Of a stretch of DNA of 64,000 nt, positions 32,501 through 56,584 are shown piece after piece. A program made the translations under genes and the position numbers. Numbering within the stretch: the first letter of the stretch is position 1; every line of letters starts with the position of its first letter. Source of the stretch: Verrucomicrobium sp. BvORR034 (lineage in GTDB: Bacteria > Verrucomicrobiota > Verrucomicrobiia > Verrucomicrobiales > Verrucomicrobiaceae). The DNA lies in the NCBI RefSeq assembly GCF_000739635.1, contig NZ_BATQ01000136.1:1-64000 (forward strand), written 5' to 3'. The notes under the pieces are model-generated. The model ran no database searches. It was not told the origin of the DNA and saw nothing but the letters and a program-made list of their open reading frames with translations.

Positions 32501-35500
32501 CCCGGCACCTGACCCGATGGTGATCGTGCTGCCGCCTGCAGCGCTGGCGGCGAATCGAATGGCGCGCACGCCCACGATGTCATTATACGACGCATCGCCA
32601 GTACTGTACCTGTTTCCTGTAACGTTGCCGGAGTAACCATTGACCCCACTAAAGTCATCGTCGGTGAAATAGCCGTTGACATTCTCGTCGTTCACCAGCG
32701 CGGTCCAAACACCTACGTCCGGCGCGCCAGCGCCAGAGTTCACGGAATAGACGCTGGCGGAATTGGCGACATAGCCCGCCGCATCGACGATGCGCGTATT
32801 CCCGTTCATCTCAAAGAGAAATGCAGCAAAGTCCACGTAAGCGGTGCCGTTTTCGTCCAGATACTTGTAAGTACTATAGGGTATGATCGTCCCCGTTCCG
32901 AGTCCAACTCCACCGAGGCCTGCGCCTTCCGGAGCGTATTGGGAATAGTAGAAGTTGGCAGCCCCCTTGACCCGAGTGTTAGAGAAGAAGTTGACGGTGG
33001 CTCCGGCAAAGCGGTCCGGAGCCCGCCAGTACCAGCCGGGATTCGGCCTGTTGTCTATGATCTGAACACCGGTGTTGACCAGGCCCAGGTGCAAATTCAA
33101 CGTTTTCTCGTCGCCGGGATTCAATGTAACGGATGAGTTTCCGGCGCGGAGGGTCAGGACGCCCCGCATGTACTCCGTGTTCGTGTCTCCAAGCGAGCCT
33201 TCATTCGTGAGGCGCAATTCCCCCCCCGCCATGGTGAGCTGATAGGGATTGTTCTGGTTGGTAGTGAGACCGCTGATGTGGGAGTATCCGTCCGCCTTTC
33301 CGCTGTAGTTCAGCACGAGAGTGCCGCCGAAGACATTGATGCCACCATTGATGTCAGAGCTGCTGGTGCCACCATTGAGCACCACCGTACCCCGACCCAC
33401 TTTGGAGAGGGCACCCGTGGCCAGGTCGGCCCTGTAACCGGCGCCATCCGTGAAGGTTGTATTGAACTCTGCGGTCCCACCAGCCATCTGGTACAAGCGG
33501 GCTTCTCCAAAATTTTGCGTTCTGGTCGTCCCTGCGATGGTCACCGGTGTTGCCGTGGTAAAATTCAACGCAGCAGAGCTAATGGCCGCATTCACCGGAG
33601 CACTCAGTGTCACGGTGCCTGTGACCGCATCTATGGCAGTGATCACCGTACCTGCACGGATACCTGTACCGCTGATGCCCATGCCAACCTGTAGATTCGT
33701 CACATCGGCAAGCTGGATCGTGTTGACCGGGCTGGCAAAAGTGAGCGAGGTGGAGGTTGTCACTCCTGTTCCGGTCAACGGTTGATTCAATGTTATGGAA
33801 CCAGCCTGCACAGACAGCACCTGAGTCCCGGCAGGCACACCTGTGCCCGTGACAATCATCCCGACGACTATATTGCTCGTGTCGATTGCAATTACCCTGG
33901 TATTTTGCGCACTGCTTGCCGTTGGCTGCTTCGTCGCCACGACGTTGGTCCAGTTTGTCGCCTTCGCCTTGTTGACCGGGGTGTTGTGCATGCCGAACGT
34001 GAAGGTGGTGGAACCGTTGCTGTTGCCAAAATAAACGGTGCCTGAAGTGTTCTCCCCACCGATCAAGAGCGTGGAATTGGATGAATATGCAGCATTCGTA
34101 TTGCCATAGAGGAATGCTCCGGTCCGGTAGGCGGCCCCGTCAGAGCCCAGCAAGATGGCACTGATGGCACCGGCACGATCAAACGTCGTACTACCGTCAT
34201 TCTGGCGGATCACGGTGCGGTTAAAGGTCGTCCCGTCCACACCCAAACCTTTCTCCAGGTGCAGGTATCCCGATGTGATGCCCACTGAAGCATTGCTGTT
34301 CCTGGCGTCGTCAATGAGCAGGTTGAATTTGTTGTGGACCCAGTTCGTTGAGATGTAACCCGAGATGCTCAGCACCAGTTTTTCACTGGAGTTCAGGGCA
34401 GCTCTTCCGTCGATGTCCGCCAGTTCCCCGTTGATCACGAATGTGCCGTTGGTCGAACGGACACTGGTCGTCGTGGTATTGTCATTCTGAATTGTAATCG
34501 TCCGTCCACTATCCACCCCCGTGTTGAGGGCCGGGTTGGTTGACCCGGTACCCGTGACGTCCCCATTGATGATCATGCTCGCGTTTGCACGGACCGTGAA
34601 GGTCAGCGCCCCGTACTCACCGGATTCCAGGGTGCTGTCCAGAATGATATCACCATTCCATGAATTGGCCTTGGCCCCCGCACTGAAAAAAGTCCCAGCA
34701 CGAAACAGCAAGTCCTTGCGCAACGTCGAATCGGTCACGGACCCGATGTTGATGCCACTGTTAATCAAGAACGTTGCGTAGTTGACTACTTCATTGCCCA
34801 CGCCCCCCTTCCCTAGAGCGGTGTCCGTATAGACCCACAGTTCGTTTAAGGCTTGGGTGGTGATGCCGCTGTAATTGTTCCATCCAAAGAAGTGAGCTTG
34901 CCCGCCCCCTGTTTTTGTGACCCCTCCTGTACCAGTCATCGTGGAGTAAATACTGGCTGAATTTGTCACATCTAAGTAGAGGAGCGCCTCCCTGCTGCCG
35001 AAGTCCAATGTCCCACCCCTGAGGGTAAGGCTGCCATAAAGCCCGACGCTACTGGCGTTGAGCCGCCCGCCATCCAGAAAAATAGTTCCAGATCCGCCCG
35101 TCACCGCTGCGTGCAACTCATCCCCGGCGTAGTCGCCCAGATGCACCACGTTAAAGTCGGCCAGCCTGATGGTGACACTTGCAGCCACCGTGGCGCTAGA
35201 CGGGGCCTCTACCCACAGCGAATTGAAGGCGAGGTGCCCAGCCAGCGCATTATCAACAGGACCAACCCGGATCGTCAACGGGCTCACAGCCGTCCCGCTG
35301 ACACCCGTCACCTTGACATTGTCATCCGGCTGGATCGTAAGCGTGCCCCCTGCAAGGTTGCCTGAGGAGATCACCTTCGTCGTCGCACCTCCGCCAAGCT
35401 CTCTAAACTCCGAGCTGTCCAATGGGCGGATATAGTTCACATTGTTGATCGTTTCCACCGTCATCAAGCGATTGCCGAACCGGTTCAGGACCGAGTTTTC

Positions 35501-36295
35501 CGACAAGTTACCGAACGCACCGATGAGCACCTTGCGATTGTATCCACTCGCCCCATCACCGCCCACCAGCCATTGACTCGGCAGCGTGTTAAGGATGATC
35601 TTGGTCAGTGTCTCAGCTGCGGCTGGGGCTGCGCTGCTGAAGTAGCTGTATCCCCCTGGCGCAGCCGCAGTGGCAAACTCCGTGAAGGCCACCGTACCTC
35701 CCACGCCACGGGTGTAGTTGTTCATTTCCAATGTCAGCACATTGGCCAGGATGGAGGCCGCGCTCCCTCCTGCAGAATGGTCAAACCGCACCACATTGTG
35801 CCCGTTCTGCACGGAAAGGGTGCCTATTTCCTCGTGAGAATTCACGCCAGCGACACTGTTGCGGCGCATCACGAGACCGTTGCTGCCAAACCCCTGAGCA
35901 AGTGAAACCGTAGCCGTGTCGCTGATCCTGTCATTGTTGTTGTTGGCAGTGTTGTCCAGCAGGAGCGACCCACGCACCATTTTGATCAATTGAGTATCCA
36001 CAGATCCCGTGGCACCTCCCAGAGCCAGTGTCCCACCCAACACTGCCAAGTCCCCCGTGAAGGTGTTCTCGCCCGTGAGCGTCAAAATAACCCCTCCGAC
36101 TTTACGAACAGAGAGAATCCCGTTCCCATCCTCAATGACCCCGCCAAATGTTGTGTTCGCAGCCACTGACTCACCGACTGCAAGGACAGATGTAGAGGCC
36201 GCAATCGAGTTCCTCACCTTCCCCGTTCCGAGCAATTGCCCAATGCTTTCACTGTTGCCATTCAAGTCCAGGGTTCCGAAAGCGTTCAACGTCAC
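29564..36295 (-). CDS. Giant PEP-CTERM beta-strand-repeat protein 1, C-terminal fragment after frameshift
   Basis: 2243 aa in this frame, beginning without signal peptide in the middle of a repeat (MTLNAFGTLDLNGNSESIG). The true gene starts at 37032; the two parts are joined by one missing G in a G7 tract at 36400-36406. It holds many PATR/beta-strand repeats (VLKTGTGTLFLYQNN, VKAGAGTAVLTQLNTYTG, YSGITTQ) and two tandem copies of a module GTGVPAGTQVLSVQAGSITL / GTGIRAGTVITAIDAVTGTV around residues 830-930. It ends in TAPEPGRVMLVMV...RRRRARAGV, a PEP-CTERM tail like that of the 1343-aa neighbour. Repaired length would be 2489 aa. No autotransporter barrel is present. Confidence 0.8.
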   Translation of the reverse strand: MTLNAFGTLDLNGNSESIGQLLGTGKVRNSIAASTSVLAVGESVAANTTFGGVIEDGNGILSVRKVGGVILTLTGENTFTGDLAVLGGTLALGGATGSVDTQLIKMVRGSLLLDNTANNNNDRISDTATVSLAQGFGSNGLVMRRNSVAGVNSHEEIGTLSVQNGHNVVRFDHSAGGSAASILANVLTLEMNNYTRGVGGTVAFTEFATAAAPGGYSYFSSAAPAAAETLTKIILNTLPSQWLVGGDGASGYNRKVLIGAFGNLSENSVLNRFGNRLMTVETINNVNYIRPLDSSEFRELGGGATTKVISSGNLAGGTLTIQPDDNVKVTGVSGTAVSPLTIRVGPVDNALAGHLAFNSLWVEAPSSATVAASVTIRLADFNVVHLGDYAGDELHAAVTGGSGTIFLDGGRLNASSVGLYGSLTLRGGTLDFGSREALLYLDVTNSASIYSTMTGTGGVTKTGGGQAHFFGWNNYSGITTQALNELWVYTDTALGKGGVGNEVVNYATFLINSGINIGSVTDSTLRKDLLFRAGTFFSAGAKANSWNGDIILDSTLESGEYGALTFTVRANASMIINGDVTGTGSTNPALNTGVDSGRTITIQNDNTTTTSVRSTNGTFVINGELADIDGRAALNSSEKLVLSISGYISTNWVHNKFNLLIDDARNSNASVGITSGYLHLEKGLGVDGTTFNRTVIRQNDGSTTFDRAGAISAILLGSDGAAYRTGAFLYGNTNAAYSSNSTLLIGGENTSGTVYFGNSNGSTTFTFGMHNTPVNKAKATNWTNVVATKQPTASSAQNTRVIAIDTSNIVVGMIVTGTGVPAGTQVLSVQAGSITLNQPLTGTGVTTSTSLTFASPVNTIQLADVTNLQVGMGISGTGIRAGTVITAIDAVTGTVTLSAPVNAAISSAALNFTTATPVTIAGTTRTQNFGEARLYQMAGGTAEFNTTFTDGAGYRADLATGALSKVGRGTVVLNGGTSSSDINGGINVFGGTLVLNYSGKADGYSHISGLTTNQNNPYQLTMAGGELRLTNEGSLGDTNTEYMRGVLTLRAGNSSVTLNPGDEKTLNLHLGLVNTGVQIIDNRPNPGWYWRAPDRFAGATVNFFSNTRVKGAANFYYSQYAPEGAGLGGVGLGTGTIIPYSTYKYLDENGTAYVDFAAFLFEMNGNTRIVDAAGYVANSASVYSVNSGAGAPDVGVWTALVNDENVNGYFTDDDFSGVNGYSGNVTGNRYSTGDASYNDIVGVRAIRFAASAAGGSTITIGSGAGSADRLVLGTQGPNGWDGAGWTSEDGGAILVSNSVGAASAGISGGYLTSALPSTYFTAAVAPGSMSALPGPTARDLIIHNYNMGSVFTIDSTIVDYTENHDYNTNQTPTALAAVTKLNLVVAGPGTTLLKKATNYYTGTTYVSGGAMADNNQWEVGTLWVGSVESLGSGGLHLNGGRLRFAHTSTPQAQSLGSLGFSRSVTLGGNGGYFDVTHSGTTLTISGYLRSEDNVLSGNIASTQMAANPGVGDLIKEGAGRLILTKNEAIPATFATTPNSQQFWNAYYGLTIVKAGTLQVNIGNIGDSGILGSNDSTIDGTIVEEGARLDVQITNSGAGTKEWITLDGGTLGTTAAHSDGYIDGVMTITSKGATFDIAGTGNLRVNGGALADGFLTGTGNVLKTGTGTLFLYQNNMTFTGNWDIQQGRVNGYGQGMTLGAGGTITLGSPTATSGEASLLLSANQLFTSQYRVTQDIVVRANVTGQVRNIGAGLSPVTASGRNQDSFFFEGDITLNGDAHLVFIESSAATSLAPVAGELQYSHVTGAYRNLLFNGHFSGSGNLYTDVTLTGVATNGAKVTFLINGDNSSANGQTAWTGTLTTGNATLNNLQEHFIRMGNNLAMTAANKVELGYNSAFQLGGKTVSIGDLKARVTGNASTNKIYVENAANDEGTLRVVQTANTDWDILFQDGVTPEWYSSASAAVYSNRLNLVKAGAGTAVLTQLNTYTGTTVVETGNLQVGRGGVGTRASADAVGRTGTGALSVNNGGVLSGTGVVQARSGVVHSVNSGGKIAPGDAGGSSLGTLFMDGGLVLNAGGTLEFQISKATHWVSGLSDVTNTSAYSAALLALPSASELSGTIGLDMHDHLEINGQMDLSGGGLGAGTISLVDLNYLSTAKAGDVFNLIDWASVNGTGFNAGGTYRVGGESGSNLLLPTLGNGLAWDTSLFTNHGILIVTTAPEPGRVMLVMVAWAAWALRRRRARAGV

Positions 36296-37032
36296 AACTG
36301 TCGCAGCCGTGATTTGATCACGGTAGTTCGGGAGATGAGTACTCCCCAGTCCTGCATAGGATCCACCAATCTGGACCGTCGCCGTGTCAGCCGCAGTCGC
36401 CCCCCCACATTCAATGCCCCGGTGACAGCCCGAACCGCTGCCGAACTGCTCTTCGCAAGCACCACCGTCCCCTGCTGTGCATTCAGCAGATTGAGCGCAT
36501 TGTTTGCAGTACCCGTGATCAGCAACTTGCCAGCGCCAGTCTTGGTCAGAGTGCCCGCCCCAATCACGCCATCGAGCTGCAAAGCCCCAGCTCCATCCAC
36601 AACGTTTACGTTCAGAGCGGTAGAGAGCGTGAGCGTGTTGCGAATGACGTCCAGCGCCATGCCCTGTTTCGTCAGGGCATTGCCTCCAACCTTGCTGAAG
36701 GTGATCGCCGCCCCAGTCAGCTCGAACCCACCCGCATCCACCGCCGTCAAATCCCCGATCGTCAAATCACCCAGGATAACCGGATTGGCCACGTTGATCT
36801 GGTACGCCCCGGTGTGCGCCACATCGATCATCCCCGCCACCGTCGCAGAGGGCACCCCACCGCTCCAGTTCGGGATGGCGTTGAAGCTGGAACCGGGTGT
36901 TCCCACCCACACGGACTGTGCCTGGATGGCGGCGCCAGAAGCCATCAAGATCAAGCTCGCGACGAACCCCTTCCACAGGGTTAGGGATGGGCGGGAAGCC
37001 TCACGTGCTGAACAGAAGAAGGTGCGGATCAT
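36292..37032 (-). CDS. Giant PEP-CTERM beta-strand-repeat protein 1, N-terminal fragment before frameshift
   Basis: 246 aa starting MIRTFFCSAREASRPS, with signal peptide (LWKGFVASLILMASGAAIQAQ). It continues as a normal repeat protein (GTLTKTGAGKLLITGTANNALN) up to ALNVGGRLRLT, then runs through about 30 nonsense residues to a stop. Reading the same DNA with 8 instead of 7 G at 36400-36406 gives GGATAADTATVQIGGSYAG, which leads straight into the frame of the downstream fragment. The gene starts 61 bp after Verru_Chthon D and is probably in one transcript with C and D. Confidence 0.75.
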   Translation of the reverse strand: MIRTFFCSAREASRPSLTLWKGFVASLILMASGAAIQAQSVWVGTPGSSFNAIPNWSGGVPSATVAGMIDVAHTGAYQINVANPVILGDLTIGDLTAVDAGGFELTGAAITFSKVGGNALTKQGMALDVIRNTLTLSTALNVNVVDGAGALQLDGVIGAGTLTKTGAGKLLITGTANNALNLLNAQQGTVVLAKSSSAAVRAVTGALNVGGRLRLTRRRSRLVDPMQDWGVLISRTTVIKSRLRQL

Positions 37033-37093
37033 GAACTCTTTTTGTCTTTGGGATTTTCTAAAAGGATCGACTAAAACGAAACCTCGGAGCACA

Positions 37094-37831
37094 TCACGGC
37101 CGGTAGATGGAAAGACGGGTGGTCACTGGATCGATGAGCAGCGTGTAGTAGTTGGTCACTTGTGCGGGCGGGCGGGCCGCATCTGCCAGGGGCACCACTG
37201 CGAGGTGCCACTTGGACTCAGAGTCGAGACTGGTGGTCTCGGGATAGAGCACAAATGCCCGGTATTCCTCGGACGACGGATCAAAGTTTGAATATCCGGC
37301 GGTCGTTTTCATCACTGTCTCCACCAAGCCAGCCCCTTTCTTGTCGCTGGGCTTGGTCGCATCACCCAGTAACGTGGACATTTGCGGATTTTCTGACACC
37401 GCCGTCCCTTCCGGCAGCACCACCATCGCCTGTCTCACCACCGCGAGCGGTTTGCCCAAAGCTGCCGTACCGGTGCGCGGATCCGTCTCACCTGGCTGAA
37501 AGTACTCCAGCATCAAGCCACCTCGAAAGAAGCCACCATTCGGAGCTCCGTTCATCACATCGTCAACAGAAGGCACTCGATAAAAACGAACCTCCACAGG
37601 TCGCCCCTGACCATAGGCCCGGCTCTGCGCCTCGGAGAGGAACCCTGCCATCTTGTCCCCCGCCTGAGTGAGCTTGGACGCCCCAAGCGTCCCCATCAAC
37701 CCAGGCATGACCAAAGCCAGCAACAGTGCCACAACCGCCACGACAGCCATCAGCTCGATCAACGTAAATCCTTTGGCGGGTTTCCACTGGCTGAAGGATC
37801 TGGAAGAATAATGTGATTTCATCATAACCAT
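37094..37831 (-). CDS. Verru_Chthon cassette protein D (GspH-like pseudopilin)
   Basis: 245 aa. Prepilin N-terminus KG|FTLIELMAVVAVVALLLALVMPG with cleavage after Gly21 and Glu at +5, then a hydrophobic helix and a globular domain with PVEVRFYRVPS and FVLYPETTSLD. Size and N-terminus correspond to Verru_Chthon cassette protein D; by position and shape it is GspH-like. AAGG lies 10 bp upstream of ATG 37831, one of the few Shine-Dalgarno-like sites here. It is 43 bp downstream of C and 61 bp upstream of the giant adhesin gene. Prepilin peptidase and an assembly platform must be supplied from outside the window. Confidence 0.88.
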   Translation of the reverse strand: MVMMKSHYSSRSFSQWKPAKGFTLIELMAVVAVVALLLALVMPGLMGTLGASKLTQAGDKMAGFLSEAQSRAYGQGRPVEVRFYRVPSVDDVMNGAPNGGFFRGGLMLEYFQPGETDPRTGTAALGKPLAVVRQAMVVLPEGTAVSENPQMSTLLGDATKPSDKKGAGLVETVMKTTAGYSNFDPSSEEYRAFVLYPETTSLDSESKWHLAVVPLADAARPPAQVTNYYTLLIDPVTTRLSIYRP

Positions 37832-37874
37832 GTGAGTTTTGCCTTGAAGTGTCCGGATCATTTGACGGAACCTC

Positions 37875-38978
37875 TCAAGTCCCGGTACCCGCGCCCCATT
37901 TGGACGAGCGGATGGGGACCGTGGCCGTGAAGACGCGGAAGTTGACCTTCCGATCCACCAGCAGACCCGTGAGCGTCTCCATGTCTGCCGCATAGCGGGC
38001 TGCATTTCGGAACAGCGATGACTGGGACAGTTCCTGCTGGAGCGGCGGATTGGATCCCGCATCCAGTTGCAGGTTGATCGCGGATCCTTCGTCCATGGCC
38101 ACCAGCGTGATCATCACCAGCGGTGGAAGCTGGTAGTCAGTGGAAAGCTGGGGCCGGCTGGGAAGAGTGCTGCCGTACTGGCTGTCATAGGTGTATGCCG
38201 GTGCGATGCTCGTAGGAGCCACTTTGGCGGCCTCCGCATCACTGGGTGAGAGCTGGGGAGAGACCACCAACATGAGGATGTTGTTGGCGATCGCCCGGCT
38301 ACGCAGCGGTGCGTTCTGATCAAAATCCCCATACCAGGTCCCGGATCCCGTTTTGAGAGTGGGATCGTACACCCGGTTCCTCTCTGTGGGCGACCGGTAC
38401 TCATACATCCGGTACCGGTAGGACGGAGGCTTGCCCAGTGCGGCCAGGAAGTCCGGTCGGAGCGCGGAGTCATCCCCAAACTTGATGTAGAACCCGCAGC
38501 CATTGAGGGAGGTCGGCAGCCGGTAGTCCTTGGAATCTCCCAGCGGAGCCTGGAAGAATACCGCGTGCCCCGGTGACAGCGACTCCGCCAGTGCAGTGAG
38601 CTTGGGCGACGCCCCGGATGAGGAAAGCCCCGTGACGAACTGAAGCTCGGAGTAGCGTACGTAGCCCGAGGGCGCTTCGTTGGCCCCCTTCCCCGGCGGC
38701 AGCAGCGGATTGCTGCTCCCGTCAAAGCGATAGCAAAGATAGGGATTTAGCTCCGCCTGGCTGAGGGCATGCGTGATGCGGTCAAAGGCACGACGGGCCT
38801 CGCGGAAGGAGGAAACCTTGGCCGTGCTCTGCCGCCAGGCACGCTGCACATGCTCGAGCATCGATGAAATCACAATTAGCAGGATGGCCAGCACTGTGAA
38901 TGACACGAGCAGCTCCACCAGGGTGAACCCTCGGGATGGACCAGGACCGTGCGACTTGAAGGAGATGGGGATCGGCAT
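37875..38978 (-). CDS. Verru_Chthon cassette protein C (GspJ-like pseudopilin)
   Basis: 367 aa. Prepilin motif RG|FTLVELLVSFTVLAILLIVISSMLE (cleavage after Gly17, Glu22 at +5), followed by RAWRQSTAKVSSFREARRAFDRIT, the long helix continuation typical of GspJ/PilW-like minor pseudopilins. The rest is a large beta-rich domain. ATG 38978 (MPIPISFKS) was preferred to the longer frame from 39023, because the sigma-54 -24/-12 element at 39007-39022 would lie inside the longer version; predicted transcript start is about 38996. Cotranscription with D and the giant adhesin is likely. Confidence 0.88.
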   Translation of the reverse strand: MPIPISFKSHGPGPSRGFTLVELLVSFTVLAILLIVISSMLEHVQRAWRQSTAKVSSFREARRAFDRITHALSQAELNPYLCYRFDGSSNPLLPPGKGANEAPSGYVRYSELQFVTGLSSSGASPKLTALAESLSPGHAVFFQAPLGDSKDYRLPTSLNGCGFYIKFGDDSALRPDFLAALGKPPSYRYRMYEYRSPTERNRVYDPTLKTGSGTWYGDFDQNAPLRSRAIANNILMLVVSPQLSPSDAEAAKVAPTSIAPAYTYDSQYGSTLPSRPQLSTDYQLPPLVMITLVAMDEGSAINLQLDAGSNPPLQQELSQSSLFRNAARYAADMETLTGLLVDRKVNFRVFTATVPIRSSKWGAGTGT

Positions 38979-39006
38979 GGTGGGAGTTAGAACCGCCACT
39001 CTGCAA

Positions 39007-39073
39007 AGCAGCCCGCGTGCCACCGTTTCCCCACCTCACCCTTACTGTCATATTCGTACCATTTGCTGTGACT
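39007..39073 (-). promoter_or_regulatory. Sigma-54 promoter with upstream 28-bp dyad, gene C
   Basis: Minus strand, 5' to 3': AGTCAC-N16-ATGACA dyad (39073-39046), 23 bp, then TGGCACGCGGGCTGCT with -24 GG and -12 GC exactly 10 bp apart. The total of 67 bp and every internal spacing equal those at genes A and B; spacer cores (GGTACGAAT) are shared too. Predicted transcript start is about 18 nt before ATG 38978. Confidence 0.8.
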
Positions 39074-39288
39074 AGTGATCATTTTGCCGCCTCAAATCCA
39101 CCGCGCCAACAGGAGAGCGCACCATGAGACACTCCCCTATTCAAGATGACCTCATGGCCTCTCTTCGCCGCTTTTCTCTCAAAAATGACGTAAAGTTCTG
39201 CACACCCTCATGCCCCATCAGGAGATACCCACACAAACCCACTCCGATTCCACCATCCAAACAGTCAGCACATAAAGAGGCCCACTTC

Positions 39289-39330
39289 AAAAAAAATAAC
39301 CCCGCCGTCTGCACAGCGGCAGAGGCGGGG
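39289..39330 (-). terminator. Intrinsic terminator after Verru_Chthon A
   Basis: Minus strand: CCCCGCC ... GGCGGGG stem with a further TCTGC/GCAGA pairing inside, followed by TTATTTTTTTT. It lies 34 bp past the A stop and separates A from the C promoter. Confidence 0.9.
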
Positions 39331-39363
39331 CCAGGTTGGAATCGCAAGTTTCCGGCAGGCTTG

Positions 39364-42300
39364 CTAGGGCATGAACCGCTTTACTTCCAGCACGCGGAAC
39401 CGGTAGAATTCCTCCAACGAAGGCAGATCCAGCGGATTGGCACTGGCACCATAGTCAGGAATGCGGGTATCGGCAGGATCGATGCGCCGCTCGATCACGG
39501 TGGAACCGCGAAAATCGGTGAGGACATTGTCGCGACTGGCATCAAACTCTGTGGAAGTGGATGACCGGGCCTTGCGAATGACTTGAGCCCGATAGTGCAC
39601 GCGGAAGGTGTTGCTCTGCGTGGTGATCTTTCCGTAGATATTGGCATAGGGTCTCTCTCGCGTGTTGTCGCCAGTGAGGCGGCGCTTCTTCCAAAACTCC
39701 TCCATATCTGAGACAGTGTAGGCAGGCGTTTGAGCATCTGCAGTTCCGTCTCCCCCGGTAAGCTCCACATCTCCTGAAGAGCCAGCAATCTTTTTGGGGA
39801 TGAGGTGGATTTCGCAGATCTGGCTGGCGGTTCGGAAGAGCCCCCGCGTCGCAGCCGGCGTGGTTGGCAACATGGCAAACCGATCTTCGAACTGCTTGAG
39901 CACGCCGCCCACAATCTCACCACTGGCCCCACGTTTTTCCGCCTCAATTTCACGGTGCCAGTACTTCTTGGCGGCCTGCCCGGTTTCAGACAGCCTTCCC
40001 TCCTGATCCGTCCAAGGCTGCTTGTAGGTGTAGCCATCTGAAGTGTCGACGAATTTGGAAGCTGCAGGCACCGACAAGTAATTCGGAGCATCTGCCGTGG
40101 GCACGGCCTTGAGCATCTCGCCCTTCAGCAGAGCGTGGAGTCCCGTCGCCCGCCTGATGTAATGAAACGGAACGATTTGATAGTTGATGTTCACCTTGCC
40201 CGCCGTCGAAAATGGCTCGCTAATGGCGTAGGGTTCCACCACCGGCATCCAAAATAGATCCATGATGTAGTGATCTGCCGGGCTTACTCCTCCCTGCCAT
40301 GCCGCCGCACCTGGGTGCTTCATCGGATCGCCCGGGGCACCATTGGCCGTCACCACATTGGGACGGAAGAGCAGGGTCCGCCAAGGATCTCCGGCACGCA
40401 CCCCTGTAGGCAGGGACCCAAACATACCCGACGAGGGCATCATGCGGTTGGGCGACATGAAGCTCTCTCCAGATGCGGACGAAAGCTCACCGTACGTCCA
40501 CGTGCCCATGTAGGCCAGCGGCATGCGGATGGTGGAGGCCGAGTCATTCGTGATGCGGAATGAGATGTGAGTATTCCCCTCATCAGGCTTGTTGATGTAG
40601 GGCCCGTCGCGCAGATCGCTGATACCATTATCGAAGTCTCCATACCTGCCAGCCAAATCTGTGGCAGAGGCGTTGGTGGGAAGATCAGGTATGCGGGCGG
40701 CCCCGTAGTTGGCTCCGGGCACCAGACGGGTGCTCGTGGTTCCACGATCATAGCCAGGTTCGCGATCAGAATAGTAGCGACTCAGACTGTGGGCGACATA
40801 CTGCTTGTAAGTTCCCACATTCCCTGGACCCGTGCCAATCTTCCCCAAGTTGGCAGTACGGGGGTGAGGAGCCCAGTCACTGGCGGTGACTTCTGTTTTG
40901 GCAGCAAGAAGGCGCGAGTCCCCGTGGGATGCCACCATGGTAAACACTGTGTCCTGCCCGCGGGAGTCACGCACGCCCCCGTCCGGTTGCGTGTCAGAGT
41001 GCCTAGTATCGGACATGCAATCTGTAGGCGAATCTGCCGCCGGACTGCTCGGATTGAGCAGCGCATTGCTGAAAAAGCCGCTGCTCGGATCAAACGCCCA
41101 GAGAGTGCTGGCCCAACGAGGCACCCCGTCCAGCCCCACCGGCGCATAGGTCGCAGGGGTTGACGACACTGTTGGGACAAAAAGCCGTCCGTTGGTGATG
41201 AAGTCGGTCGTATAGGACGTGAGTTTATCATCCACCCGTGAGGTCACCGTCCAACGCTTCTTGCTATTGTCCCAGAAGCCCGTCAACCTCCGCAAGGCAC
41301 CGCAGTAATTGAACGCCCACCACCTGGGAGCATGGATCGCTTCTTGTTTATAGAGCGTGCCTCCACTGAGAAATTGTTTGTAGTCAGTGCTCACAGTCAC
41401 GAGTTGCGGCACCGGCACACTGGTTCGCGGAATCTCCACGTTCACCGTCTGGACCAGATCCTCAGCCTTCGCATTATGGCTGGAATAGATCTTGATGGTG
41501 AGACGCCCACCGGAGAAGTCCATCATCCCCTCATTTCCCGAGCCGTCCACGACGGGCACCGTGAGAAACTTGGTCGTAATGTCCAGATTCCGGGTGCCAA
41601 AGTGCGGTGCTGGCGCCACTCCTGTAGAGCGCGACCCACCCGCGGACGCGTATTTGGTATCGGCAGTCACCCCCAGGGTCTTGGATCCAACCCGCCGGTT
41701 GAACGTCATGGCATAGCTGCTGGCCGCTCCGCCGAATGGACGGCTGTCTTGTGCACTGAAGAATTCGTGGTTGGACTTCCACTCGAACTCCGCTGCACCC
41801 ACCCTGTCATAAAGGTCCATGCCGGCGAGCTGCATGTTTTTCAATCCCTCCACCTTCACGGTAAACTCAGGGTTCATCAGGCTGAAGCCGGGAGCTGGCA
41901 TGGAGAACTTCATCACCAGCATGCCCTGCACTCGCCTCTCCGTGGGCCCCAGAGGAGGAGCACCAGATTCCAACGTGACATTCCAGTTCTCTGGTTTGCA
42001 GCCCGGGTGGTTGTAGACACTATTCGGCTTCTGGTCGTCCAAATTGGTATCAACACCGTAGTAGTTTTGCATCGTGTCGACGGTCGGCCGCGGTGGATAG
42101 TTCGAGTACCAGAACTGCTTCTTCATGGTCTTGTACCAAGGATCCATTTCCTCCTTGGGCACCGCCGTTCCCGCCTCTTCCTTGGTGGCATCCTTCGGAT
42201 TGTATCGTTCAATCTTCAGGGCCGTTCGCCCCCCGCTCACCTTGCGGTCAGGAGCCCCTGCGGCAGGCTCTTTCCAGTTCGCACCGTCTGCGACAGGATT

Positions 42301-44478
42301 CACATAGCTACCCTTGTCCGTCGCACCGTCTGCCGTGCAGATGAACTGGAAGCCGACTTCAGACAATGCCACAAAGCGCCCAAATCCAACGTAAGTTTCT
42401 GTCCCGTCCTTGTAGAGTGAAGGGGCCACCATGCCATGGCCTGGGAATGAGGTTTCCACGAGACGCTCAGTGTACGACTGTCCCGTTGCACCACGAGCGA
42501 CTCCGTAGCTAGACCGGTCATAGGTAAAGGTCTTGAACGTTTTGGGGCGCTCCGCATAGACGAATCCATCATAGGTGGACTCAGCCAGCCCCATTGGCCC
42601 CATGCCCGCGGCGGTAACGTACTTGTCCCGGTCATAGAGACCACCGACCTTCTGCAACTCTTCCTTAGAAGGTGCCAAGAAGCCGTCGTACAGGTTCGTG
42701 GAACGCACGTAGTCGAAGATCTCCACCAGGATCTGCTTGTAGTCCTGGGGGTACTTGTCCTTGAACGAAGCTCCTCCCGGATACTTCTGCTCCATGAGAC
42801 TGAAGAGATAACCAATCAGAGCCTTGTTGCGAGCCAGCTCAATGTCCCGCGTCGGGCTGTAGGCGCACTTTCTACGGAAAAAGTAGCTGTCTTCTCCGCT
42901 GTTTCCCGTCCTGCCCATGGATGAGCAAAAGGCGATCAACTGGTCAAAGCCCGTACGAAAATCCTTGGGATTGGTCACGCCGACCACGGGCTTGCCTGCT
43001 TCATATTCCAACCCACCCTCATCTGCCACCGGCCACGCCGCAATGCGTGGCAGACCAAAGAGGTTCGTCTCCGGCATCCGGCTCTGGGCGGTGAGGAAGA
43101 AACGCAAGCGCTCCAGGTCCACCTTGCCATCAGCGGATTGCCCCGGCTGGACAAAGAAGGGATCGGCCGTCGCTGCGCCATTTGAGCCATTCACGTACGA
43201 GCTCAGCTTCCGGCGGCCGTTCTCAAACCCATCGGCAAAGTACAGCTCGTCCACCGACGCATAGAGACGCTCCTGGATGGAATCCACCAGCGAGAGGTAC
43301 TTGTTGTAGAGGGACGAATCTTTGTAGGTGCCCCCCGTTCCCGTGTAGTTGTCCACAAACTTCCAGTAGGGCACCGTGCCCGCCTTGGACCCACCAAAGT
43401 TGATCTTGGGGGTGAGCTTGTAGATCGTTTCCTTGCGTTGCAGAATCGCCCGGTAGTTGGCATCAGTGCCACTCATTCCGTAGAGGTCCATCGGCAGGTT
43501 GGGGAAGAACACCGTGCTGAGTGCCACAGTGGCGGGATGCCCGGGATACCTCTGAAACTCGTGTGACGTGGGCTGGTAGTACGCCCACCACAGGTCTCGA
43601 TCATGAAACAACGAAGGCACCGTCCAGTAGGTGGGTTCACTGGCCGTGTTGATGTTGAGCTTGCAGGATTCATCATCCGTCCAGAAGGCCACTCGCCCGG
43701 AGATCGGGTTCACGCGCCCCTCGGCGTCACTGAGCTGGCTGCCATCGGGCTTGATGAACCGGTTGGCACTGTCCAGCACCCCAAAGGTGCCATCCTTCAG
43801 CACATACATCCACTCCACCGGCATGGGCAGGCGGGCATCCAGGCTGGTGTCCGCGGCGTTCGGGTCATAATCCACCACGCCATTCACCCCTGCGGAATAG
43901 TAGAAGCCCTCCACGTTGTTATTGTTCTCCACTGCTTCTTGGGACCGCACATAGGCGCGCGGATCCAGAATGGGGAAGTAGAGATGCGGCGTACCCGCCC
44001 CATCTGAGGCGGGCCGGATGATGGGTTCATTGAGATCCACATACCGGTTCGGGCTCATGTTCCAGCTTACGGGCGGCTTGTCATCCACCATGGCGCGCTC
44101 AGCACCCCGTACGACCATCTGAGAGCTGGAGTAGAGCTTGTAGCCAGAGTCAAACGCGCCCTCGGTAGTGTACCGCCGCACGGCCCCCGGTTGGGAGGAC
44201 CACAGATAGCGTCTGCCATTCGCCGCCCCTTCATCCTTGCGTTTGGTGGCCTGCCATACCTGATCCATGACCACGTTCACCGCTGAGTCTGCGAGTTCAC
44301 GGGAACGCTCTTGATACGTCTGTTGATTCGAAGAGGCTAGTTCCGTTTGCGATACGGAAAACATGGCCACCGTCAGCAGCGTCATGAGCGCCAGCACGGA
44401 GACCACTGTGATGAGGGCGATGCCGCGCCGTCTTTTTGCTCCGAAGACTCGTTGATTGGCAGGGATGATTTCTTTCAT
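39364..44478 (-). CDS. Verru_Chthon cassette protein A (giant GspK-like pseudopilin)
   Basis: 1704 aa. N-terminus RRRGIALITVVSVLALMTLLTVAMF has the pseudopilin hydrophobic helix but lacks Glu at +5 (Thr instead), as GspK does. Near residue 270 WTDDESCKLNINTASE matches the GspK signature region (DE-GKLNLNT). A second related element, AGKVNINYQIVPF, occurs near the C-terminus. The protein is several times larger than GspK (about 330 aa), with long insertions rich in aromatic and Gly/Ser residues. It has its own promoter (44525-44591) and terminator (39289-39330), so it is transcribed alone. Assignment to Verru_Chthon A rests on cassette context, start motif and size. Confidence 0.88.
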   Translation of the reverse strand: MKEIIPANQRVFGAKRRRGIALITVVSVLALMTLLTVAMFSVSQTELASSNQQTYQERSRELADSAVNVVMDQVWQATKRKDEGAANGRRYLWSSQPGAVRRYTTEGAFDSGYKLYSSSQMVVRGAERAMVDDKPPVSWNMSPNRYVDLNEPIIRPASDGAGTPHLYFPILDPRAYVRSQEAVENNNNVEGFYYSAGVNGVVDYDPNAADTSLDARLPMPVEWMYVLKDGTFGVLDSANRFIKPDGSQLSDAEGRVNPISGRVAFWTDDESCKLNINTASEPTYWTVPSLFHDRDLWWAYYQPTSHEFQRYPGHPATVALSTVFFPNLPMDLYGMSGTDANYRAILQRKETIYKLTPKINFGGSKAGTVPYWKFVDNYTGTGGTYKDSSLYNKYLSLVDSIQERLYASVDELYFADGFENGRRKLSSYVNGSNGAATADPFFVQPGQSADGKVDLERLRFFLTAQSRMPETNLFGLPRIAAWPVADEGGLEYEAGKPVVGVTNPKDFRTGFDQLIAFCSSMGRTGNSGEDSYFFRRKCAYSPTRDIELARNKALIGYLFSLMEQKYPGGASFKDKYPQDYKQILVEIFDYVRSTNLYDGFLAPSKEELQKVGGLYDRDKYVTAAGMGPMGLAESTYDGFVYAERPKTFKTFTYDRSSYGVARGATGQSYTERLVETSFPGHGMVAPSLYKDGTETYVGFGRFVALSEVGFQFICTADGATDKGSYVNPVADGANWKEPAAGAPDRKVSGGRTALKIERYNPKDATKEEAGTAVPKEEMDPWYKTMKKQFWYSNYPPRPTVDTMQNYYGVDTNLDDQKPNSVYNHPGCKPENWNVTLESGAPPLGPTERRVQGMLVMKFSMPAPGFSLMNPEFTVKVEGLKNMQLAGMDLYDRVGAAEFEWKSNHEFFSAQDSRPFGGAASSYAMTFNRRVGSKTLGVTADTKYASAGGSRSTGVAPAPHFGTRNLDITTKFLTVPVVDGSGNEGMMDFSGGRLTIKIYSSHNAKAEDLVQTVNVEIPRTSVPVPQLVTVSTDYKQFLSGGTLYKQEAIHAPRWWAFNYCGALRRLTGFWDNSKKRWTVTSRVDDKLTSYTTDFITNGRLFVPTVSSTPATYAPVGLDGVPRWASTLWAFDPSSGFFSNALLNPSSPAADSPTDCMSDTRHSDTQPDGGVRDSRGQDTVFTMVASHGDSRLLAAKTEVTASDWAPHPRTANLGKIGTGPGNVGTYKQYVAHSLSRYYSDREPGYDRGTTSTRLVPGANYGAARIPDLPTNASATDLAGRYGDFDNGISDLRDGPYINKPDEGNTHISFRITNDSASTIRMPLAYMGTWTYGELSSASGESFMSPNRMMPSSGMFGSLPTGVRAGDPWRTLLFRPNVVTANGAPGDPMKHPGAAAWQGGVSPADHYIMDLFWMPVVEPYAISEPFSTAGKVNINYQIVPFHYIRRATGLHALLKGEMLKAVPTADAPNYLSVPAASKFVDTSDGYTYKQPWTDQEGRLSETGQAAKKYWHREIEAEKRGASGEIVGGVLKQFEDRFAMLPTTPAATRGLFRTASQICEIHLIPKKIAGSSGDVELTGGDGTADAQTPAYTVSDMEEFWKKRRLTGDNTRERPYANIYGKITTQSNTFRVHYRAQVIRKARSSTSTEFDASRDNVLTDFRGSTVIERRIDPADTRIPDYGASANPLDLPSLEEFYRFRVLEVKRFMP

Positions 44479-44524
44479 TGCGAATAAACAGGGGTTGCCT
44501 GGTCTCGTATGTCACCCCTGCCAA

Positions 44525-44591
44525 AGCACCCACCATGCCACCCCTTTTCTCTGGCCAGCACACAGTCACTAATGTATCAGTTACTATGATT
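44525..44591 (-). promoter_or_regulatory. Sigma-54 promoter with upstream 28-bp dyad, gene A
   Basis: Minus strand: AATCAT-N16-GTGACT (44591-44564), 23 bp, then TGGCATGGTGGGTGCT with GG-N10-GC. Predicted transcript start about 44514, about 36 nt before ATG 44478. The leader contains CAACCCCTGT (44488-44497), also found before the start of gene B. The 230 bp between this module and the pectate lyase stop hold no gene. Confidence 0.8.
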
Positions 44592-44824
44592 ACTGCACGA
44601 TACAGCGGGCAAATCCCACCACGAAACGCCCTCTGAATCGCTCCAGAAATCTCGCAACACGATGAATCTACGCCACCCGAATCACTTTGTGTCTTGCGGC
44701 AGTTTCATACCCAACCGCCGGTTCGACCATCCTTTGTAAACACAAGGAGCCGACCCACGGCATCATGAAGGGGAATTCGATGAAATTACATCGTCACCCC
44801 TTTGTCACAAGGTCAGCGATCTTC

Positions 44825-46336
44825 CTATTTGCCCTGTTTCCAGCGCTTTTCCCACTTGGCCCACTCCTTCTCCTTCAGATCGCGCGGTTTGTTCGTGAAG
44901 TAGTCGTAGGCCACCTTGTTGTGCTGTGCCATTTCGTGATACGTGGCATACACCACCCCGTCCCCGGCGCCAGGAAAGATCGGCAATCCGCTCTCCAGGT
45001 CGTAGAACCGGGCCCAGAGCACTTCGGTGCTGGAGGGATCCTGCACATAGTCCGTACGCCCCTTCTCATTCTTGATCCTGCGGAGACCAATGATCTTTTT
45101 GGACTCCAACCAGGCAATGCCATCATTCACCACCCCGCGCATTTCTTCATTGAGCGGACCTTTGCGCATCAGGAAACGAAGCATCACGGCACTTTCCCCA
45201 CCACTGAGGGATGGGGGCTCTTTCAACCGGGCCGCCGCGGGCACGAGTGTCAGCGGATCATGCTGGGCGCACCACACCGTACGCACGTCATTCAGCCGCA
45301 CCTGGCAGGCCAGAAGGCAGTTCAACCCGCGATCAAATGCCGCTGTCGCCCTTTGCTTGAACTCCGCCGGTACCCAGGCAAACGGCGCATCGCCGTGGCT
45401 CACGGCGTGCAGTACCTCCAGCGCATGGGTCACGGCCCCGTCATTGAAGGTGATGCCCTCATGGTAGCCGGGTTCGAGGGGATAAACCTGGGGCCATCCC
45501 CCGTTGGGAAACTGCGCCGCGAGCAGCCAGTCGATGCCACGGAGCGTGGCGGCCCGGCAATCCTCCCGCCCATGTGCCTGCGCCACCTGGGCCAGGAACT
45601 TGATCTGCTCCGTGGTCGCACGGTTGTCGAGGGTGCCACAATAGTGCCAGCCCTTCCCGTCTTGACTGGTCCAGTGCGTGCCCGCCTGCCGGGGCCCTTT
45701 GGCATAGTCCACTGCTTTGCTCCAGCCACCAGAAGGAGTTTGGTAGGTCAACACGACGTCGGCGAGCTTCGCTGCCTCTGCGGTGGCGTACCAGGCCACA
45801 TCCATCTTTTCGTCATCAAACTCAAACTCCTTGGAGTCCTCCGGTGCCGGAGTCGAGGCTCTTTGCCCAAGGCGTCGGCACTCCATGGCCAGAAACCTGC
45901 GTTCTTGAAGAGCCAAGCTCCTCGAGCGGGCGAGATACTCCTGCCAGACCTTGCGATCCGAATCTGGGAGAGCGTCAATCCGCGCCGGGGTGAGCAATTG
46001 CAAAGGACCATGGGGTTCGCAAACCCAGGTTCGGCTCAAACGCACCGTCTCTCCCTCTTTCGCCCGTATTTCCAGACTCTCCCACCCCACGTCTGGGATA
46101 GGGGTTACCAGTTTGAACTTCCCCTCGCCGTCTGCCTCAGGCAGAGCCTGCCACGATGCCTGCTCTCCGGCTCCCGGCAGGTTGAGTCGCCACTCCCATA
46201 CGGCAGAGATTCCACTGGCAGTCCCGGTGTAGTGCAGCTCCAGCATGTCTTCACGCAGGTCACTGGTCCAGTCTGGGTCGGCCTTCGCGGAACTGAATGC
46301 AGCAAGAAGGAAAGAGAGCAGGGCGCGAAATTTCAT
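44825..46336 (-). CDS. Pectate lyase, polysaccharide lyase family 10
   Basis: 503 aa with signal peptide (KFRALLSFLLAAFSSAKA). The N-terminal 150 residues are a beta domain; the catalytic PL10 domain covers about residues 180-490: TPSGGWSKAVDY, QFPNGGWPQVYPLEPGYHEGITFND, VWCAQHDPLTLVPAAARLKEPPSLSGGES, WARFYDLESGLPIFPGAGDGV. Cleaves polygalacturonate by calcium-dependent beta-elimination outside the cell or in the periplasm. ATG 46336 has AAGGA 9 bp upstream. It sits inside the Verru_Chthon cassette, between B and A on the same strand, which suggests a link between cassette and plant or algal polysaccharide use. Confidence 0.9.
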   Translation of the reverse strand: MKFRALLSFLLAAFSSAKADPDWTSDLREDMLELHYTGTASGISAVWEWRLNLPGAGEQASWQALPEADGEGKFKLVTPIPDVGWESLEIRAKEGETVRLSRTWVCEPHGPLQLLTPARIDALPDSDRKVWQEYLARSRSLALQERRFLAMECRRLGQRASTPAPEDSKEFEFDDEKMDVAWYATAEAAKLADVVLTYQTPSGGWSKAVDYAKGPRQAGTHWTSQDGKGWHYCGTLDNRATTEQIKFLAQVAQAHGREDCRAATLRGIDWLLAAQFPNGGWPQVYPLEPGYHEGITFNDGAVTHALEVLHAVSHGDAPFAWVPAEFKQRATAAFDRGLNCLLACQVRLNDVRTVWCAQHDPLTLVPAAARLKEPPSLSGGESAVMLRFLMRKGPLNEEMRGVVNDGIAWLESKKIIGLRRIKNEKGRTDYVQDPSSTEVLWARFYDLESGLPIFPGAGDGVVYATYHEMAQHNKVAYDYFTNKPRDLKEKEWAKWEKRWKQGK

Positions 46337-46420
46337 GAGGAGCAATCCTTACAAAAGCCCCTCCCAACGGCGTTGCAAGGCATTCATGTCTGCTGCGGCC
46401 AGCCGCCGCACCCCTGTTAC

Positions 46421-46456
46421 AAAAAAGCGCCCCCATGCTTACCGCACAGGGGCGCT
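46421..46456 (-). terminator. Intrinsic terminator after Verru_Chthon B
   Basis: Minus strand: AGCGCCCC / GGGGCGCT perfect 8-bp stem around a 15-nt loop, followed by TTTTTT. It lies 88 bp beyond the B stop, before the pectate lyase gene. A second inverted repeat CGAACCG-TCACCAT-CGGTTCG lies at about 46461-46481. Confidence 0.88.
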
Positions 46457-46543
46457 CACGCGAACCGTCACCATCGGTTCGCTGGCCTATCACACACATC
46501 CAAGTTACACCATTTAACCAGCACAAAGATCCCCAGTCGCGCC

Positions 46544-47101
46544 TCAAAACTGGCGCGTGACCGTGTAGGCAACCTTCTCATGTTTGCTGTCTGCCTTGTC
46601 GAAATCGAAGTTGGCCTTTGGGCTCACGGCCACATGGAGGATCACCTTTCGGCTGTCGGAGCGCACGGAAACCCCGCCGCCTGGCAGTGTGGGAGCGTTG
46701 CCTGCATCCACGACCTCAAACTTGGCCACGTAGGAGAGAGCCTGGCCTTGGGCACCGGAGAGTCCACCTTCATTGCCAGCGGTGAGGCGGGTGCCCTCGC
46801 CGTCAAAGTAGCGCACAGCTCCGTGAAAATCAGCAAGCTTGCTCCAGCCTACGCCGCTGCCAGTCTTGTCGCCCCAATCAGCGGATTGCAGTTCACCGAT
46901 CATCTGCTGGCAGATGCGGGAGGAGGAGATGGAGTCGCCTGCCTGGCGCAGGTTTTCCAGGCCGGCAGGAATCAGGCCCAACAGCGTAAGCATGCCCATG
47001 GAGGCGATGGCTACCGCGATGGCGACCTCGGGAAGAGAGAAGCCCTCTGCAACAGCGGAGGCACGGTGACGAATGGCACGGGTGAGCAGGGTCGTGTTCA
47101 T
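46544..47101 (-). CDS. Verru_Chthon cassette protein B (GspI-like pseudopilin)
   Basis: 185 aa. Prepilin motif EG|FSLPEVAIAVAIASMGMLTLLGLIPAG, with cleavage after Gly20 and Glu25 at +5; the Pro at +4 and the Gly-containing helix are like GspI/PilV. The globular part is short with one beta domain and ends with KVAYTVTRQF. ATG 47101 was chosen because the prepilin leader follows directly and the sigma-54 promoter at 47191-47257 lies upstream. Terminated by the hairpin at 46421-46456, so B is transcribed alone. Confidence 0.88.
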   Translation of the reverse strand: MNTTLLTRAIRHRASAVAEGFSLPEVAIAVAIASMGMLTLLGLIPAGLENLRQAGDSISSSRICQQMIGELQSADWGDKTGSGVGWSKLADFHGAVRYFDGEGTRLTAGNEGGLSGAQGQALSYVAKFEVVDAGNAPTLPGGGVSVRSDSRKVILHVAVSPKANFDFDKADSKHEKVAYTVTRQF

Positions 47102-47190
47102 GTCTTGTGAGTGATACAGGGGTTGAACGGGTCTGAATTGAAAGGTGCAGCACCGGCCAAGACAGGGCTCGATGCGGCACATTCTCCTCA

Positions 47191-47257
47191 AGCACCCGCC
47201 GTGCCACCGGCGTGCCAACATCTTCGCGCAGTCACATTCGTATCATTAAGCGTGACT
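47191..47257 (-). promoter_or_regulatory. Sigma-54 promoter with upstream 28-bp dyad, gene B
   Basis: Minus strand: perfect dyad AGTCAC-N16-GTGACT (47257-47230), 23 bp, then TGGCACGGCGGGTGCT with GG-N10-GC (-24 GG at 47204-47205, -12 GC at 47192-47193). Predicted transcript start about 47180, about 79 nt before ATG 47101. Dyad spacer core TGATACGAAT is nearly shared with gene C (TGGTACGAAT). Confidence 0.82.
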
Positions 47258-47302
47258 TGCGGACACCGCTGGGCCTCACTCTCACCGCCGGCCCCTGCGA
47301 AG

Positions 47303-48316
47303 TCAGCTTCCACTGACCACAATCTTGCCAAAATGTGCTCCTGCCGCCATGTGCTCGAAGGCCGCTGGTGCGTCTTCAAACGCAAAGGTGCGGTCCAGCA
47401 CAGGTTGGATGCCATTCTGCACAATGGCGCGGTTCATCTGCTCGAAATGCGCACGGCTGCCCACGTAGATGCCCTGGAGGGTGACGCTGCGTGCGATCAC
47501 CGGCCAGGGATTGACAAGCCCCTCAAAGCCCGTAAGCACGCCGATGAGGCTGATGCGCCCGCCGTAGCGCACGGCATCCAGTGACTTCTGCAACGTGCCA
47601 GCACCACCCAGTTCTATGACCTGGTCTGCCCCTGATTTCTGAGTTAGTTCAAAAACCCGACGCTCCCAGTCTGGAGTCGTCTTGTAGTTGATGCCTTCAT
47701 CCGCGCCCAGTTCCCTGGCCCGCGCAAGTTTGTCATCGCTGCTGGAGGTGATGATGACACGTGCCCCGTGCGCTTTGGCAAACTGGAGGGCAAAGATGGA
47801 CACTCCGCCCGTCCCCAAGGTGAGAACTGTCTGACCGGCCAGCATCTGACCCTGACCCACGAGGGCGTTCCAAGCTGTGACGCCTGCACACGGCAGCGTG
47901 GCCCCAGCAGCAAAATCCAATGTGGTCGGCAGATGCACCAGTGCATCCGCCTTCGCAATCATGTACTCCGCCAGCACTCCCTGTAGCGCGCCGCCCAGAG
48001 CACTCTTCATGATGGCGTGCGTCATCCCACCCGCAGGCCAGCTTTGAAAGAAGGCCGGGATCACGCGATCCCCTTCCTTCCACTGGGCGACACCTGCCCC
48101 AAGGGCAGCGACTTCACCCGCGCAGTCTGATCCGATCGTAAACGGCAGCGGAAGATTCCCCGGGCGTTCGCGCCGGGTGGTGCCCAGATCACGATAGTTC
48201 AGGGAAACGGCACGGACTCGCACCAGCACCTCTCCCGGTCCGGGGGTTGGGGTGGGTACTTCCGTGAGCTTCAGTCCTTGAGGTCCAGTTGGTTGTGCGA
48301 TTTGCCATGCTTTCAT
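47303..48316 (-). CDS. Zinc-independent medium-chain alcohol dehydrogenase / quinone oxidoreductase-like
   Basis: 337 aa. MDR superfamily: N-terminal GroES-like domain (GPGEVLVRVRAVSLNYRDLG, GSDCAGEVAALGAGV, GDRV) and a Rossmann domain with TLGTGGVSIFALQFAKA (nucleotide-binding) and GARVIITSSSDDKLARARELGAD. The catalytic-zinc Cys/His ligands of classical alcohol dehydrogenases are absent, as in quinone oxidoreductase-like proteins. NADPH-dependent reduction of an enone or quinone is likely; substrate unknown. It lies upstream of the Verru_Chthon B promoter on the same strand but is probably unrelated. Confidence 0.9.
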   Translation of the reverse strand: MKAWQIAQPTGPQGLKLTEVPTPTPGPGEVLVRVRAVSLNYRDLGTTRRERPGNLPLPFTIGSDCAGEVAALGAGVAQWKEGDRVIPAFFQSWPAGGMTHAIMKSALGGALQGVLAEYMIAKADALVHLPTTLDFAAGATLPCAGVTAWNALVGQGQMLAGQTVLTLGTGGVSIFALQFAKAHGARVIITSSSDDKLARARELGADEGINYKTTPDWERRVFELTQKSGADQVIELGGAGTLQKSLDAVRYGGRISLIGVLTGFEGLVNPWPVIARSVTLQGIYVGSRAHFEQMNRAIVQNGIQPVLDRTFAFEDAPAAFEHMAAGAHFGKIVVSGS

Positions 48317-48520
48317 GCTGATGGAAGGTACGATGCCGACGGTGGGAGCGAACTCTCAGGCACCAGATTTTACTGACATTGCGAGCCCTCGATAGGGGTC
48401 AGGCCTACGTATTCGAAGGGATCTTCCTGAGATGCCAGATGAATCTTTGGGAATTGAGATGCTGAAAGGTTGAGCATTGCACTCAGCCCGCTAAGGTGCC
48501 GCCCCTCATTCTCTTCAGTC

Positions 48521-54234: not shown

Positions 54235-54311
54235 GACTTCCCCCTCACCCGCACTTGACCCTCTCCCCGCCCAAGTGTTCCCTTCCTGTCCCGCCCCTCT
54301 CACCTCCCACC

Positions 54312-55793: not shown

Positions 55794-55853
55794 CGCGTAG
55801 CGCCAAAGCGGCCCCTTCTCCCTTACCCCTCTTCCCTTTTCCCTCTCTCATCC

Positions 55854-56549: not shown

Positions 56550-56584
56550 CTCCTCCCCCCACCCTTTTCTTCCCCTTACCGACC

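Follow-up and report, generated by a model that had tools for sequence, protein, structure and literature searches.

A candidate sigma-54 regulon joining a split Verru_Chthon cassette to distant PEP-CTERM repeat proteins in Verrucomicrobium

The closest described relatives of the control elements reported here come from Proteobacteria, where the PrsK-PrsR regulon combines an upstream motif, the PEP-CTERM box, with a sigma-54 promoter in front of PEP-CTERM genes. The accessible part of the survey that described this arrangement reports a 17-nucleotide motif together with a sigma-54 motif in Proteobacteria only, the first motif, which ends in TTTACA, lying on average 62.8 nucleotides (standard deviation 10.6) before the second, and it lists Verrucomicrobium spinosum without PrsK, PrsR or PrsT (Haft et al., 2006; PMC1569441). 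In Aquincola, a PEP-CTERM promoter that depends on RpoN was mapped and has the elements TGGCAC and CTGCTT, as far as the available passages of that study go (Xia et al., 2023; PMC9850573). Upstream activating sequences (UAS) reconstructed in Clostridiales lie mostly 100-250 base pairs (bp) from the promoter according to the sections consulted (PMC6615313), and the accessible part of a review places UAS away from the promoter, hence requiring looping (PMC7057263). Here we describe a stretch of 64,000 nucleotides from Verrucomicrobium sp. BvORR034 (contig NZ_BATQ01000136.1, positions 1 to 64,000; hereafter the window), in which three promoter-like modules precede the genes A, B and C of a rearranged Verru_Chthon pseudopilin cassette. 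We know of no function for Verru_Chthon cassettes; the term was not found in the open-licence literature searched, and no open-licence paper was found that links Verrucomicrobium spinosum with sigma 54.

In each module, read on the minus strand, a 28-bp block is followed after 23 bp by TGGCAY-N6-TGCTT, in which GG and GC are 10 bp apart. At a probability of roughly 0.7, which applies jointly to the explanation as a whole, we take these modules to be sigma-54 promoters, each with an upstream recognition element that is conserved, about 28 bp long and for the most part asymmetric and whose distance from the promoter is short and fixed, and to form one genus-specific regulon of five promoters per genome. 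The resemblance to the PrsK-PrsR regulon, as its accessible description gives it, is an upstream motif joined to a -24(GG)/-12(GC) promoter before PEP-CTERM genes, whereas the present modules have a constant gap of 23 bp, an element with a core of about TGRTACRAATRTGAC and pseudopilin-cassette genes among their targets, and no PrsR-grade activator is found among nine candidates. With UAS-dependent promoters of the NtrC family the modules share a conserved upstream site, TGGCAY-N6-TGC and the presence of rpoN and NtrC-family proteins, but the element is mostly asymmetric and rigidly placed close to the promoter. Ordinary Verru_Chthon cassettes encode the same A, B, C and D proteins (TIGR02600, TIGR02598, TIGR02599 and TIGR02596), while the window cassette is broken up: B, A and C-D stand as separate units, and a pectate lyase separates the first two. 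Its parts are as follows, proteins A, B, C and D all scoring above their NCBIfam cut-offs (positions without a label are window coordinates).

47230..47257, minus strand: upstream element of B, AGTCACGCTTAATGATACGAATGTGACT, the sole copy with perfect 6-bp arms
47190..47206, minus strand: sigma-54-type -24/-12 promoter of B, TGGCACGGCGGGTGCTT
46544..47101, minus strand: cassette protein B (TIGR02598, 77.9 bits against a cut-off of 51.4), its start ATG 91 bp past the GC of the -12 element
44564..44591, minus strand: upstream element of A, AATCATAGTAACTGATACATTAGTGACT, left arm poor
44524..44540, minus strand: sigma-54-type promoter of A, TGGCATGGTGGGTGCTT
39364..44478, minus strand: cassette protein A, 1704 residues (TIGR02600, 972.9 bits)
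39046..39073, minus strand: upstream element of C, AGTCACAGCAAATGGTACGAATATGACA
39006..39022, minus strand: sigma-54-type promoter of the C-D-repeat protein unit, TGGCACGCGGGCTGCTT
37875..38978, minus strand: cassette protein C (TIGR02599, 320.8 bits)
37094..37888, minus strand: cassette protein D from a predicted start codon (TIGR02596, 86.1 bits against a cut-off of 70)
29564..37092, minus strand: giant beta-strand-repeat protein in two frames, 36292-37092 and 29564-36295 (TIGR02601)

The sequence, spacing, conservation and gene content of the modules can be read directly from the genomes. The three modules, which the first-pass annotation had reported with identical internal spacing, occupy 47257-47190 (B), 44591-44524 (A) and 39073-39006 (C) on the minus strand, and they exceed chance by far: the window has three mismatch-free occurrences of TGGCAYN6TGCTT, one each at B, A and C, compared with a mean of 0.09 and a maximum of 1 in 100 shuffles, and the half-site TGRTACN4RTGAC at its fixed distance from the promoter gives three matches compared with none in 100 shuffles. 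Across the whole genome holding the window, the promoter pattern TGGCAYN5YTGCTT with up to one mismatch is hardly enriched (163 occurrences versus 144 for a reversed control pattern). Before B, positions 47217-47190 (minus strand) hold two overlapping TGGCAC elements 11 bp apart, which are kept in three species.

The same modules recur, in the same order and with identical spacing, in two other genomes of the genus. We refer to the genome holding the window (8.58 megabases) as G000 and to the other genomes of its genus as G040 (a single contig of 8,220,857 bases), G122 and G162; C- and L-numbers such as C137 label sequences of the genomes compared. A first sequence model of 70 positions, built from seven copies and run on 68 genomes of the family, gave strong matches only in G000, G040 and G122, four in each, the fourth of G040 being weaker (expect value (E) 2.6e-5); the four sites of G122, which had not entered the model, were found at E 2.4e-16, 2.3e-12, 8.5e-11 and 4.3e-10. 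The 64 family genomes of other genera gave no strong match to this model (best E 0.03). In a scan of 387 genomes of the phylum, a sample evidently without G040 and G122, 11 genomes had matches at E up to 0.02, of which G000 alone was strong, and in the remaining ten genomes the best matches, at E 2.4e-4 to 0.017, were all partial. A single-protein scan of named genomes matched only BvORR106 and, weakly, Akkermansia. A second model, built from 13 copies and searched in the whole genomes of G000, G040 and G122, yielded five strong sites per genome, and the best of the remaining matches had E 0.07. These are the cassette sites B, A and C together with two distant ones, Pep and Pep2. The G000 and G122 copies of Pep2 had not entered the second model and reached E 4.1e-7 and 5.4e-9, respectively.

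Pep site: G000 C137:55893-55961; G040 5386753; G122 C47:14934
Pep2 site: G000 C129:7459-7525; G040 5148000; G122 C51:15531

All six distant sites precede proteins that, in the form scanned, are about 1,680-1,710 residues long, and in each of the three species both target proteins carry TIGR02601 beta-strand repeats and a C-terminal TIGR02595 PEP-CTERM domain, both above cut-off. The parallel with PEP-CTERM genes that had been drawn from the window thus extends to two distant PEP-CTERM targets that carry the module, but not to the regulator, all nine strong activators of G000 remaining below the PrsR cut-off.

Conservation is concentrated in the two elements. In alignments of B, A, C and Pep from G000, G040 and G122, 100 of 112 columns are invariant in the 28-bp element (89%) and 67 of 76 in the promoter (88%), compared with 49 of 84 in the spacer (58%) and 192 of 388 in the upstream flank; the flank of B is unusually conserved (78 of 97), and the gene upstream, 47303-48316, has the end of its coding frame within this flank. 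When one promoter class at a time was held out and its G000 copy was scored against 200,000 random positions, no random position reached the score of the element in any of the five classes or that of the promoter in B, A, C or Pep, while the spacers gave p 0.04 to 0.97. High held-out scores for both elements and not for the spacer indicate that a pair of elements is maintained at one spacing and that the intervening DNA drifts, in agreement with the earlier remark that the DNA between them is not conserved: compared between promoters, the spacers are about as different as expected by chance. The description of the element as a common 28-bp dyad is not supported, B alone being clearly symmetric, with perfect arms. 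Of the outer six positions, all are symmetric in B (6/6, p 3e-4) and four in A and C of G000 (4/6, p 0.04 each), and the count falls to 3/6 in A of G122, C of G040 and Pep2 and to 1/6 in Pep. The right-hand 17 bp, held out, reach p 6e-5 in A and 3e-5 or less in the four other classes, compared with 2e-4 to 0.05 for the left 11 bp (G000 copies), so that an asymmetric block having the core given above, from which A departs in the middle, describes the element best. In all 15 sites, 23 bp separate its edge from TGGCA. A site at 29438-29510 (minus strand), before the beta-strand-repeat gene 25419-29450, has perfect GTCAC-N16-GTGAC arms followed by TGGCATGAATGTTGTTCCAA, and in G040 these arms and the part resembling a promoter are unchanged, unlike the spacer; it was considered as a sixth member of the regulon and left out, since its gap is 25 and not 23 bp, its -12 element is GT and the shared core is absent, and it is perhaps a second kind of site.

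We infer that the upstream element is an activator site, and a trans-acting activator of the NtrC family probably, though with some reserve, sits on it. G000 contains 18 PF00158 matches, nine of them strong, among which one is RtcR and another, by reading, is without a recognisable GAFTGA loop. Against the PrsR model (TIGR02915) none of the nine reaches 502.6 bits, the best (C18) attaining 411.9. Five NtrC-family proteins are conserved in G000, G040 and G122, and none of them was singled out as the cognate activator; in G000 two of the five carry the label C157 and the others C18, C102 and C145. A phylogenetic profile (tblastn on 48 of 54 candidate places) yielded no genus-specific activator, all five having relatives elsewhere in the family. 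The candidates labelled C160 and C160 short were set aside since a close match to each is missing from one of the two genomes G040 and G122, as was the NtrC-family activator of the CHASE-domain kinase operon (C102) when judged by its own promoter, no copy of the element being read at that operon.

The strongest competing explanation, which we regard as somewhat unlikely, accepts sigma-54 and places on the element a factor that is no enhancer-binding protein, such as a repressor, an architectural protein or a co-activator that touches RNA polymerase, while an activator of the NtrC type acts from an unrecognised site or from solution. The rigid 23-bp gap in every site and the asymmetric core are unusual for a looping enhancer, and the greater distances of most Clostridiales UAS as well as the looping requirement, in the parts of those sources available, point in the same direction (PMC6615313; PMC7057263). 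Against this explanation, no second conserved block stands out, by reading of the three-species alignments, in the 97 bp upstream of the element.

Several further observations weigh against a five-promoter regulon with an NtrC-type activator on the element. The element is only 23 bp before TGGCA in all copies, unlike a typical distant UAS; relatives of all five conserved activators occur in other genera, whose genomes gave no strong match to the module; and no activator gene was found among the window open reading frames tested or read beside the distant targets. G162, which is 76% complete, gave no match with the first model. The 43 bp downstream of the promoter are also well conserved (136 of 172 columns invariant, 79%), so that not all DNA outside both elements drifts freely. 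Finally, the promoter of Pep2 deviates (CGGCAC..TGCTG) and is weak: held out, it reaches p 0.0017, and it scores 10 on a promoter-only scale of 13 points, a value of at least 10 being reached in 317 of 2000 random stretches.

Of the two components, the promoter is the more secure, and it very probably uses sigma-54. That a sigma-54-type promoter coupled to a conserved upstream element is common to B, A and C, as first proposed, is well supported by the data above and by the presence in the genome of rpoN (one PF04552 match each in G000, G040 and G122) and the nine strong PF00158 proteins. A different sigma factor's promoter, or an unrelated composite operator with a chance GG-N10-GC, appears improbable. 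It would account for the base before TGCTT, which is G or C here, the usual base at this position of sigma-54 promoters being T. However, sites of the same consensus precede rpoN itself, with TGGCACGTATTTTGCTT just upstream in G000 and G040 (L234:3448-3464; L233 near 4417, minus strand), which suggests autoregulation, and the CHASE-kinase/activator operon, where TGGCACGGGTGRTGCTT is conserved in G000, G040 and G122.

L064:1525-1541, with homologous places in L215 and L217: sigma-54-type site of the CHASE-kinase/activator operon

The consensus also matches the mapped RpoN site of Aquincola pepA, as given in the accessible text (PMC9850573), and a sigma-70 scan of 36000-48400 returned two sites, neither at the starts of B, A and C, compared with 3.7 in shuffles.

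That sigma-54 controls Verru_Chthon cassettes in general, as the first-pass annotation had suggested for Verrucomicrobia, is largely refuted and very improbable. In its favour, the window cassette and its counterparts in the two other species all carry the module at B, A and C, so that enrichment upstream of orthologous loci was found as expected; at paralogous cassettes, 16 of them in the same genome, no comparable site was found. G000 has 17 and G040 18 Verru_Chthon C genes above cut-off, and in the 16 other G000 cassettes the detected genes sit together (orders A-B-C, A-B-C-D, D-B-C-A, B-C-D-A, B-C-A and C-D-A, the last with B not detected), whereas the window, G040 and G122 share the split order B, pectate lyase, A, then C-D. 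On the 13-point scale, where 12 or more counts as comparable, the best score upstream of the 16 A genes of G000 is 11. Because A sits behind C in six of them, the whole loci were retested, and their 240,837 bp contain one same-strand site of at least 12, located 3' of C, versus three on opposite strands, which is chance level. None of 30 A genes (one per family genome, 480 bp upstream, the operon position of A unchecked) reaches 12, the best being 10. The upstream stretches of 30 C genes (330 bp, paralogues of G000 and G040) have best sites of 5/7, and coding-like sequence runs close to C in them. The paralogue in C145, 56% identical, scores 8/13. Nine loci of other genera, picked as likely nearest relatives (A 32-41% identical), score 9/13 at best, and two of them show no GG-N10-GC in 500 bp; B adjoins A in seven of the nine, with C following B in six of these seven, and was not detected in the remaining two. 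The promoter of Pep2 scores only 10/13, so a similarly weak site could have escaped these promoter-only tests, but the family scan with the first model found no strong match in other genera, and the whole-module search of G000, G040 and G122 was independent of the promoter scale. A recent duplication of intergenic DNA without regulatory role, to which the identical spacing of all copies would be congenial, is equally improbable, because from one promoter to another the spacers have diverged to roughly the level of chance, both elements being retained, and because across species both elements are conserved above spacer and upstream flank.

The remaining features of the cassette region are these:

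46425..46457, minus strand: terminator-like hairpin 3' of B, a similar one being readable in the other two species
44825..46345, minus strand: pectate lyase between B and A (TIGR02474, 254.8 bits), at the same place in G040 and G122 and in two pieces in G122
39302..39319, minus strand: terminator-like hairpin 3' of A, a similar one being readable in the other two species

The hairpins after B and A were counted in favour of the proposed regulon. The giant repeat protein of the cassette has a tail that is PEP-CTERM-like by eye, TIGR02595 not being reported for it at E up to 1. Its frame break (minus strand, about 36290-36330) lies near a run of seven G; G040 aligns there with gaps and has no short closing frame listed, and the break may be due to sequencing or be real. 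Elsewhere in the window, 54255-60043 (plus strand) holds Wadjet-like defence genes for JetA (PF18982), DUF4194 and an SMC-like ATPase.

The regulon as we propose it would work as follows. RNA polymerase with sigma-54 would wait at the five promoters as a closed complex until one trans-acting factor on the element, most likely an activator of the NtrC family, answers a surface or envelope signal and switches all five units on together. Three promoters would drive the rearranged cassette as B, as A, and as C-D plus the giant repeat protein, and two would drive the distant genes for beta-strand-repeat proteins of about 1,700 residues with PEP-CTERM tails, so that pseudopilin-like machinery and candidate cargo would be made simultaneously. 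Because one promoter type is shared by the cassette and the distant genes, the whole group is probably switched on together by one regulator. Here we infer the use of sigma-54, the identity of the activator and the sign of its action, and the relation of machine and cargo. That the cassette exports the giant repeat proteins can be put forward only tentatively. Rigid 23-bp spacing and an asymmetric core are unusual for a looping enhancer, and a more far-reaching, unlikely version would have the regulator dock at a fixed asymmetric site next to the promoter and activate without a free DNA loop, a mode that would have evolved within one genus when a single cassette broke into separately transcribed units and, combined with giant repeat proteins of the PEP-CTERM type, became a programme dedicated to their export.

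The findings suggest that PEP-CTERM proteins are under sigma-54 control outside Proteobacteria too, and without PrsR; the accessible part of the survey of 2006 met its own motif pair in Proteobacteria only (PMC1569441). In Verrucomicrobium, where Verru_Chthon cassettes reach up to 17-18 copies per genome, the five-promoter regulon would tie one of them to specific PEP-CTERM repeat proteins and thereby provide a testable hypothesis of machine and cargo, and its small set of targets may help the search for the activator and for the signal to which it responds.

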